IMG/VR virus record: IMGVR_UViG_3300032286_000710
Span: 102,605-166,604 of that record
Strand: one strand, 5' to 3'
Source of the DNA: a virus
Length of the DNA stretch: 64,000 nt
Positions within the stretch are counted from its first letter, which is position 1. The number at the start of each line of letters is the position of its first letter. Under the pieces are notes generated by a model that was not told the origin of the DNA, ran no database searches, and saw only the letters and a program-made list of their open reading frames with translations. Both the position numbers and the translations under genes were made by a program. Below, piece by piece: positions 58,840-64,000 of the stretch.

Positions 58840-59754
58840 ATGAAATTTGGCCTTTGTTGTATATCTCTAAAGTTACAAGAACTTGACCCTCCAGTTAAGT
58901 TCCAAACTATGACATTTAAAAGATTCTCTAGCCTACCTAGGGAAGAAGCGTTGTCCGTATTGGGAGATAGAATTCTTAACAATATGGAGACTACAAATGC
59001 CGTTATTGAATATTGCGGGCAATGCGATTATAGTTACAGGATTAGTAGTGATTTGTTTCCTCTTATCACATATGACGAGGCTGGCATTGAGTTAGACGAT
59101 CTGCCAAATTATGATGATATTCAAGACAGTTTTGACATTCTAGAAAATACTATTAAAAACACTGGGGTGCGTATATCATGCCATCCCAGTGAATTTAATG
59201 TTCTTGCTTCTATGAACCAACAAGCAGTAAACAAAACAATTACAGAACTTAATTTTTATTCATCTTTCATGGATCGTATAGGATGCCCAACAGACTACCG
59301 ATCACCCATGAATTTACACGTTAATAATAAGACGGGCGACTATGACTCTATTATATCTAGATTTACTAACAGTTTTAATCTTCTTGATCCCAATTGCCGT
59401 AGCAGGCTTGTCATCGAAAACGATGATAAAGTAAATTGCTGGAGTGTACGTGAACTTACCTCTATATTCCATTCTAAGACCAATATACCCATCACATTCG
59501 ACTATTTACACCATGCCTGCCATCCAGATGGTTTGTCAGAGGAAGAGGCTATAAACGCTTGCTATGCAACGTGGGGCGATTATAAACCCCTGTTCCACTA
59601 TAGTGAAAGCCGCCCCGGTAATAACCCAAGAGCACACGCTGATTACGCAAATAATTCTTTTAACACTTATGGATTAGATTTTGATCTTGACTTTGAACTC
59701 AAGATGAAGGATAATGCAATATCTCGTTACACTAATAATTTGATAGGTGCATAA
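58840..59754 (+). CDS. uvsE: UV damage endonuclease (UvdE family)
   Basis: 304 residues, close to the family length. TIM-barrel metal sites: SCHPSEFNVLAS (His about 115), MNLHVNNKTG (His about 160), LVIENDDK (Glu about 193), DYLHHACHPDG (His 224-228) and FHYSESRPG (His about 253). It nicks DNA 5' of UV photoproducts and starts alternative excision repair. First gene of an operon that continues with the 114-residue gene. Phage UvdE would protect DNA in sunlit environments. Confidence 0.88.
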   Translation: MKFGLCCISLKLQELDPPVKFQTMTFKRFSSLPREEALSVLGDRILNNMETTNAVIEYCGQCDYSYRISSDLFPLITYDEAGIELDDLPNYDDIQDSFDILENTIKNTGVRISCHPSEFNVLASMNQQAVNKTITELNFYSSFMDRIGCPTDYRSPMNLHVNNKTGDYDSIISRFTNSFNLLDPNCRSRLVIENDDKVNCWSVRELTSIFHSKTNIPITFDYLHHACHPDGLSEEEAINACYATWGDYKPLFHYSESRPGNNPRAHADYANNSFNTYGLDFDLDFELKMKDNAISRYTNNLIGA

Positions 59755-62342: not shown

Positions 62343-62425
62343 GCCGCTGTGGTGGAATTGGCATACACATGGGACTTAAAATCCCACGCCCTTTAGGCTT
62401 GCGAGTTCAAGTCTCGCCAGCGGTA
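62343..62425 (+). tRNA. tRNA-Leu (TAA)
   Basis: Class II tRNA: acceptor GCCGCTG/CAGCGGT, anticodon stem TGGGA/TCCCA with loop CTTAAAA, long variable arm, T-arm GCGAG-TTCAAGT-CTCGC. No intron, in contrast to the tRNA-Gln. No CCA. Confidence 0.9.
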
Positions 62426-62437
62426 TTAAAAATTTTT

Positions 62438-62511
62438 GCCCCAATAGCTCAATTGCATAGAGCAACGCACTTCTAATGCGTAGGTTACAGGTTGGAGTCC
62501 TGTTTGGGGTA
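62438..62511 (+). tRNA. tRNA-Arg (TCT)
   Basis: Acceptor GCCCCAA/TTGGGGT, D-arm GCTC...GAGC, anticodon stem ACGCA/TGCGT with loop CTTCTAA, T-arm ACAGG-TTGGAGT-CCTGT. No CCA. Confidence 0.9.
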
Positions 62512-62523
62512 CTTTTACTTTTG

Positions 62524-62569: not shown

Positions 62570-62941
62570 ATGAAATGTGTCAAATGTAATGAAGAAAAAT
62601 CTAAAAATAATTTCTATATTGTAAAGAGTGGCCCAAGAAAGGGTAAAATTCAATCATATTGTAAATCTTGCAATAGTAAACATGCCGCAGAAAGATTAAG
62701 AAAATTTAAAGAAAAACTGGTAGAGTATAAAGGTAATAAATGTAAAATTTGTGGATATAATAAATGTATAGCAGCATTAGACTTACACCACAGAGATCCA
62801 AGTAAAAAAGATTTTACATTATCACAAATAAAAATGACATCATTTGAAAAAAATAAAGAATTAATCTGTAAAGAACTAGACAAATGCGATTTACTTTGTT
62901 CTAATTGCCATAGAGAAATTCATTTTTTGGAGAATAACTAA
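62570..62941 (+). CDS. HNH endonuclease next to tRNA-Arg (123 residues)
   Basis: AAAGGAATTAAAA before ATG. N-terminal zinc ribbon (CVKCNEEKSKNNFYIVKSGP...CKSC), then HNH core CKICGYNKCIAALDLHHRDPSKKDF and CDLLCSNCHREIHF. Homologous to the 144-residue HNH at 53.7 kb. AT-rich codon use compared with early genes suggests a separate origin. Likely homing endonuclease. Confidence 0.85.
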   Translation: MKCVKCNEEKSKNNFYIVKSGPRKGKIQSYCKSCNSKHAAERLRKFKEKLVEYKGNKCKICGYNKCIAALDLHHRDPSKKDFTLSQIKMTSFEKNKELICKELDKCDLLCSNCHREIHFLENN

Positions 62942-63105
62942 TGAGTAAATCCGTAATAACATACTTGAAAAAAGTTCTAAAAGAACGTAAGGAATATGAC
63001 AAACATCTAGATCTTAAAGGTCCGCTAATGTATAATGCAGATTTGATGATCGCTCTTGAGTTTGTTATTAAGCATTTAAAACGAGAGGAATCAAAACATG
63101 AATAA
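62941..63105 (+). CDS. Small basic helical protein, 54 residues
   Basis: Overlaps the HNH stop by one base (TAATG). Reads MSKSVITYLKKVLKERKEYD and ends KREESKHE. Helical throughout. Function unknown. Confidence 0.5.
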   Translation: MSKSVITYLKKVLKERKEYDKHLDLKGPLMYNADLMIALEFVIKHLKREESKHE

Positions 63106-63134: not shown

Positions 63135-63665
63135 TCAATATAACTCTCTTTCTGGTCTAGTTTTGATTCCACTTAAACAATATATTGACTGTTCTAAGCA
63201 ATACCAAAACATAAAGTAATTCAACACTGGATTAACAATCATAGTAATAATACAGTAATTTGTATCATACGGTCTTTTGTGGTGTAGCGAATGAGTCTTT
63301 TTGTCTTGTAGAATTCCACAGTTTTGTAACAGCCGAATCAAACGGTTCGTTTTAGTATGCTCCCAACAATGTATTTCATTACTTTGAGAAACAAACAAAA
63401 ACACTAAAGATAAGAAGTATAAACCGTAGTAATAGAAACAAGCAGACAATGTTAATGAAGGAATTAGAGTAGTCCAGTTTCGGGCAAGATAACTACCCTC
63501 ACAAAACATTCTAGGATGTTTGTGGTGATTGATATTAGGCTCAACAATATACTTACCAATTATGGGCCAGTTTGGATTACCATACCTATCTTCCCACCAA
63601 TGAAATATACCAGAAATCAAATCTGCCAATAGTATAGCAAATATTACCCATAAAATGTATACCAT
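63135..63665 (-). CDS. CarF/TMEM189-like lipid desaturase (plasmanylethanolamine desaturase family)
   Basis: 176 residues from the ATG at 63,665, with GGAGGAAC ahead; an ATG at 63,677 lies on the ribosome site itself. Family signature: LADLISGIFHWWEDRYG (His about 22), IVEPNINHHKHP (His 47-50), SNEIHCWEH (His 99, 103), and KTHSLHHKRPYDTNYCIITM (His 125-129). Three to four hydrophobic segments place it in the membrane with a di-metal His cluster. The family forms vinyl-ether lipids in myxobacteria and animals. It is the only minus-strand early-region gene besides the HNH at 46.6 kb. Confidence 0.78.
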   Translation of the reverse strand: MVYILWVIFAILLADLISGIFHWWEDRYGNPNWPIIGKYIVEPNINHHKHPRMFCEGSYLARNWTTLIPSLTLSACFYYYGLYFLSLVFLFVSQSNEIHCWEHTKTNRLIRLLQNCGILQDKKTHSLHHKRPYDTNYCIITMIVNPVLNYFMFWYCLEQSIYCLSGIKTRPERELY

Positions 63666-63682
63666 ATGTTCCTCCATATATT

Positions 63683-63695
63683 AGGATATACACTT
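63683..63695 (-). promoter_or_regulatory. Late-type motif of the desaturase gene
   Basis: Minus-strand AGTGTATATCCTA, about 20 bases before the start, matches GTGTATAWT weakly. Confidence 0.35.
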
Positions 63696-63711: not shown

Positions 63712-63739
63712 TTGACAAGTTACGATACTGCTGTATACT
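63712..63739 (+). promoter_or_regulatory. Early promoter (CGATA type)
   Basis: TTGACA, 16 bases, TATACT with TACGATA. Divergent from the desaturase gene. Confidence 0.7.
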
Positions 63740-63769: not shown

Positions 63770-64000
63770 ATGAGTAAAAATAAAGCTCCTAAAATTTCTG
63801 TCAATGTTCCAAGTCATTTTGAATTTCAAACATATGATTATTATAAATTTGATTTTATACAATATGTACTTAAATCCATATTAGGACTAAAGTATAATTT
63901 CAAAGAAATTAGATGTAATGGAATGTATCACGTCATATTTTGGATCGGAAAGAAACCAACTGAATTCATAAAGAAAAAAATTGACGCTCTGGAGAAAAAT
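63770..64000 (+). CDS. Early protein, N-terminal part
   Basis: AGAGGAAAATA before ATG; runs off the right edge after 77 codons. Reads MSKNKAPKISVNVPSHFEFQ then YYKFDFIQYVLKSILGLKYN and MYHVIFWIGKKPTEFIKKKI. Basic, alpha/beta. Not recognised. Confidence 0.5.
   Translation, partial: MSKNKAPKISVNVPSHFEFQTYDYYKFDFIQYVLKSILGLKYNFKEIRCNGMYHVIFWIGKKPTEFIKKKIDALEKN

Follow-up and report, generated by a model that had tools for sequence, protein, structure and literature searches.

The window, by which is meant the whole 64,000-nucleotide stretch of DNA that was analysed, comes from a virus record of 166,604 bases and makes up its right-hand 64 kb. This record encodes a terminase large subunit, tail fibres, DNA polymerase III alpha, RNR, ThyX, PhoH and a RecA-like protein, together with a dUTPase, a thioredoxin and a glycosyltransferase, and eight tRNA genes are found within the window itself. 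Among these lies a minus-strand gene for a protein of the Pfam family PF10520 (Lipid_desat), which is listed with the nearby features in Table 1. An in-frame ATG further upstream would open a longer frame (63135-63677, minus) of 180 amino acids, and the residue numbers H26 to H133 and D30 used below are counted from this 63677 start. The second ATG, at 63665, is the better start, however, since a putative Shine-Dalgarno sequence, GGAGGA, lies just ahead of it, with a gap of 4 nt. The desaturase gene is the lone antisense gene among its neighbours, being flanked by plus-strand genes at 62941-63105 and from 63770, and the opposite orientation reported in the initial annotation is thus borne out. 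The same antisense layout is found in loci L003-L007, in L064 and in the 595-kb phage L010, and the gene is co-directional with its neighbours in L042, L083 and L103.

Table 1. Positions within the window of the lipid desaturase gene and its associated features
Feature	Position	Strand	Remarks
PF10520 lipid desaturase CDS	63135..63665	minus	176 aa from second ATG
Putative Shine-Dalgarno sequence GGAGGA before the 63665 start	63670..63675	minus	assigned from sequence
Promoter-like motif GTGTATAT, no -35 box	63686..63693	minus	common to structural-cluster genes and homologous loci L003-L006
Putative divergent sigma70-type promoter TTGACA-N16-TATACT for the gene at 63770	63712..63739	plus	assigned from sequence
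tRNA-Leu	62343-62425	plus	with tRNA-Arg, edge of variable region holding the desaturase
tRNA-Arg	62438-62512	plus	with tRNA-Leu, edge of variable region holding the desaturase

The terminase, tail fibres and other phage genes of the record confirm that this member of PF10520 is phage-encoded, as had been claimed. Cellular contamination of the contig was considered and ruled out by the presence of the terminase, tail fibres, DNA polymerase III alpha, ThyX, RNR and tRNAs, and also by the PF10520 genes carried in three related phage records (G015, G016 and G018), the terminases of which are 85, 54 and 55% identical, respectively. The terminase is distant from those of the phage collection, where the best matches share about 25-27% identity, and relatives of it are encoded by at least 596 stretches in IMG/VR. 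Among the closest phages the desaturase has the status of an accessory gene, located in a variable region beside tRNA genes. This is concluded from a long and closely related record, G1146 (terminase 98%), which agrees with the window (91%) as far as the tRNA-Leu/tRNA-Arg region and then diverges, with other small genes beyond the tRNAs; a PF10520 search of its 149 kb gave no match, though the record is linear and possibly incomplete. The desaturase is present in a 36-kb fragment, G1145 (terminase 99%), where it lies at the fragment edge. The gene is maintained under purifying selection, since dN/dS among the viral homologues is 0.04-0.25 (0.25 for the closest pair), and a pseudogene is ruled out by these ratios and by the intact histidines.

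The motif GTGTATAT is also located 15-70 nt upstream of four minus-strand structural-cluster genes (starts 568, 6492, 15750 and 18790), and GTGTATAW without a -35 box is located at 606, 6531, 15794 and 18818 (minus), ahead of structural genes. The motif occurs in 5 of the 35 minus-strand upstream windows, against 0.16 expected (0/2000 dinucleotide shuffles), which agrees with the late-like motif described initially, although its total count over the window, 11 vs 8.5 expected, is not above chance. Loci L003-L006 keep GTGTATAAT ahead of the desaturase, and GTGTATAW may represent a late promoter in this group of phages. The opposite-strand neighbours have TTGACA-N16/17-TATAAT-like promoters. On this evidence, late expression of the desaturase is plausible.

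The protein matches PF10520 over profile positions 1-173 of 175 with a score of 140.8 bits (E 6e-41), well above the Pfam gathering cut-off of 26.4 bits, and chance resemblance is ruled out by this E value. The profile search that had been suggested as a check therefore returns, as best Pfam family, the one that holds CarF/TMEM189. The residues that align with the essential ones of PF10520 comprise H26, H51, H52, H103, H107, H129, H132 and H133, along with D30. These eight histidines and the aspartate are kept in virtually all of the homologues aligned (about 90-100), the window protein included, and mutagenesis has demonstrated that all nine residues are essential (PMC8960569, PMC9131029). 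None of the eight has been lost, so that the match to the histidine motifs of the family holds, as does the proposed membrane layout, with a long hydrophobic N-terminal helix and two more hydrophobic stretches. No family was assigned to the protein in PHROGs, and PDB sequence searches with the single protein and with a profile found no relative. An AlphaFold2 model, built from an alignment without two rows from phage records, has a pLDDT of 96 and a pTM of 0.90. Residues, predicted fold and selection together imply what is likely to be a working di-iron lipid enzyme.

The more specific identification, as a CarF/PEDS1 plasmalogen enzyme, is not supported at the level of sequence. A true plasmanylethanolamine desaturase, forming the plasmalogen vinyl-ether bond, has in common with the window protein the PF10520 domain, the eight histidines and D100, and among the NCBIfam models only the CarF equivalog NF045946 is matched significantly (E 3.6e-18). 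The score, however, is 65.9 bits vs a cut-off of 500, below which the CarF-type protein L125 likewise falls with 215.8, and the alignment starts at model position 58, indicating that the N-terminal part of CarF is missing. The ninth, PEDS1-specific histidine (mouse H131, CarF H113) is glycine (G61) in the window protein, and the position of mouse F118 is occupied by asparagine (N48), which is invariant in a 47-member subfamily alignment; the CarF-type bacterial proteins L125, L126, L127 and L131 keep both the phenylalanine and the histidine. This histidine is needed for CarF function and is missing in plant and alphaproteobacterial homologues, and those without it, from plants and an alphaproteobacterium, do not complement carF (PMC9131029). 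Mouse PEDS1 mutated at F118 has 6% activity left (PMC8960569), and the active site of the window protein must therefore differ. The phylogeny places the protein outside the CarF-type group, contrary to the initial identification: the N-type and CarF-type proteins are split with UFBoot 98 in two trees, the reference set of which consists of proteins with CarF motifs, none an experimentally verified CarF, and a tree constrained to unite the window lineage with the F/H-type group is worse by 43 log-likelihood units and is rejected by the AU test (p=0.033). The plasmanyl ether lipid that acts as the CarF/PEDS1 substrate is not known from most aerobic bacteria, which also counts against this activity. 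The TMEM189 segment in the alignment and tree is taken as a lead only, its residue numbers agreeing with PMC8960569. The argument from sequence against PEDS1 holds with the L125-type proteins and without the TMEM189 and FAD4 segments. With the PEDS1-specific residues missing, plasmalogen synthesis is disfavoured, and we regard it as highly improbable.

The CarF-type Phe/His pair is found in PF10520 proteins of other viral records, namely the 595-kb uncultured phage L010 (L010:6001-6456) and a 395-kb viral contig (L223:3001-3660), and on their residues these would be better candidates than the window gene for a virus-encoded plasmalogen enzyme. A close CarF-type protein (L125, and also L131; HHVDPKGITRHDFVETNG) is found in a genome of the same phylum as the Holophagaceae locus L036, which suggests that PEDS1-like enzymes may occur beyond Myxococcota and Leptospira.

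Judged from alignment and tree, the window protein is a member of a third, N-type or 'PNxxHH', subfamily that is distinct from CarF/PEDS1 and, as far as a single FAD4 sequence indicates, also from plant FAD4. The subfamily encompasses many environmental viruses, among them large phages and Mu-like prophages, and few bacteria. The relatives of the window protein form a virus-only clade (UFBoot 99), and a second viral clade (UFBoot 99) harbors Erythrobacter phage L02 along with contigs whose record numbers are of isolate type. In one of these contigs, L236 (3001-4067), the N-type desaturase adjoins a Mu gp27 gene and in L232, likewise numbered as an isolate, it is close to a terminase gene, and these are therefore probably Mu-like prophages. 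The bacterial members are scattered over records titled Bacteroidetes, Verrucomicrobia, Acidobacteria, Alphaproteobacteria and others. PF10520 is rare among the genomes sampled, being found above cut-off in 4/289, 2/345, 1/240 and 6/247 of them, counts that include the centre genomes and CarF-type members. A search of 72,556 plasmids gave no match to an N-type member, and the phage collection gave N-type matches in only 2 of its 50,697 records. To describe such phage genes as rare was an overstatement, in that dozens of viral contigs carry the PF10520 family and phage fatty-acid desaturases of another family have already been described. A short fragment in L112 (5977-6135) is similar (83%) to the desaturase over no more than its initial ~35 residues, and is possibly a decayed copy.

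The other characterised PF10520 activity is that of plant FAD4, the PG delta-3-trans desaturase, and the window protein could be FAD4-like, in which case the sn-2 acyl chain of phosphatidylglycerol would receive a trans bond at C3. Like the window protein, FAD4 has the PF10520 domain and the eight histidines but not the PEDS1 histidine, and its substrate, the acyl lipid PG, is present in most bacteria (PMC9131029, PMC8960569); a published tree also sets alphaproteobacterial homologues nearer the plant ones than CarF (PMC9131029). Unlike the window protein, FAD4 keeps the equivalent of Phe118, which is reported as conserved in both FAD4 and PEDS1, and has arginine at the ninth-histidine position (PMC8960569, PMC9131029). 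The corresponding residues in the window protein are asparagine, as throughout its subfamily, and glycine, and so depart from the FAD4 pattern. In the tree, the single FAD4 sequence sits on a separate branch, outside the N-type clade; this sequence, in tree and alignment alike, serves as a lead only. A FAD4-like activity is accordingly viewed as rather unlikely.

Hydroxylation, by a lipid hydroxylase that uses the common di-iron histidine scaffold and is no desaturase, has to be weighed because of two resemblances. The second Pfam match of the protein is the fatty-acid hydroxylase family PF04116, at 23.5 bits, and the best, though weak, PDB fold match is Scs7p, a di-metal fatty-acid hydroxylase of yeast. 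Foldseek with the model found nothing in the PDB under E 0.001 (best E 0.77), and in VIA-align, where all matches were weak (Z <8), Scs7p gave Z 6.5 over 150 residues at 4.6 A, ahead of human stearoyl-CoA desaturase (SCD) with Z 3.3 over 140 residues at 5.1 A. The PF04116 score, however, lies below its own cut-off and far below the 140.8 bits of PF10520, and both characterised PF10520 enzymes desaturate, for which reason desaturation is favoured and hydroxylation appears very unlikely. Among viral structure models, the best match is a lipid desaturase domain protein of Harvfovirus (A0A3G5A308), which is likewise virus-encoded and of PF10520 type but comes from a giant virus of eukaryotes and shares 25% identity.

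We consider it probable, at around 60%, that the gene is expressed late and encodes a di-iron enzyme for the desaturation of an acyl chain in a host phospholipid. The protein would represent a minimal membrane-embedded, oxygen-dependent enzyme of PF10520, expressed from its own promoter, probably late in infection, in which two irons are held by the eight histidines, with D30 in support, at the cytoplasmic face of the host inner membrane. Electrons would be supplied by a host (or phage) redox carrier and O2 would be used to form the double bond in one chain of an intact host phospholipid; no dedicated redox partner was found to be conserved next to the desaturase gene. By analogy with PEDS1, which acts at C1' of the sn-1 ether chain, and FAD4, which acts at C3 of the sn-2 acyl chain, the bond may be formed near the head group. 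An acyl chain, desaturated at the FAD4 or a new position, is likelier than a plasmalogen vinyl ether because the PEDS1-specific residues are missing. Membrane order may change as a result, either at the assembly and lysis stage or under light or oxidative stress. More tentatively, unrelated phage lineages, including large lytic phages, Mu-like prophages and a 390-kb virus, may keep a third PF10520 class, with asparagine where phenylalanine is predicted to contact a di-iron histidine, and the product of this class in infected bacteria may be an unsaturated (or oxidised) phospholipid not described so far.

Neighbouring genes provide some hints as to function. In L042 (6001-7385) the desaturase and a patatin-like phospholipase gene (PF01734) run in the same direction, with the desaturase reaching into the start of the latter. 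The two may form a lipid-remodelling unit of a virus, and their overlap hints at phospholipid remodelling, consistent with a phospholipid substrate. An 8-oxoguanine glycosylase gene is divergent from the desaturase in L003 (5163-5855) and, by homology, in L004-L007, and a UvdE UV endonuclease is encoded in the window at 58840-59754; such nearby DNA-repair genes fit a light or oxidative-stress setting but are only suggestive. Viral neighbour genes are conserved only within close groups, and the neighbours of 21 bacterial members include no recurring lipid gene.

Virus-encoded fatty-acid desaturases are known from cyanophages and Arctic brine viruses (PMC7300359) and from Nitrospirota viruses (PMC7678222), and have also been described by Roitman et al. 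2018, as cited in PMC8210812. Like the window protein, the former (PMC7300359, PMC7678222) are membrane desaturases proposed to change host lipids, but they are described as stearoyl-CoA/acyl-CoA-type and the histidine arrangement of PF10520 is different. Closer is UIS25202.1 of Erythrobacter phage vB_EliS-L02, an N-type protein of 39% identity that falls, unlike the window protein, in the second viral clade, with the isolate-type Mu-like prophage records. It is annotated 'hypothetical protein', and its gene, in the complete genome of this named phage, lies between phoH and the portal gene. No paper linking PF10520, Kua-ubiquitin or CarF to bacteriophages was found in the open-licence literature.

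Few phage genes for membrane lipids are known, and PF10520 adds a second desaturase family for phages, unreported there as far as we have found. It also defines a virus-rich subfamily within a family of two known activities, the synthesis of plasmalogens and of trans-PG, which are of interest to medicine and to plant science. As members occur in a named Erythrobacter phage and in Mu-like prophage records, what a phage may gain from lipid remodelling becomes testable. Finally, PF10520 proteins of bacteria and phages should not be annotated as plasmalogen enzymes by default.
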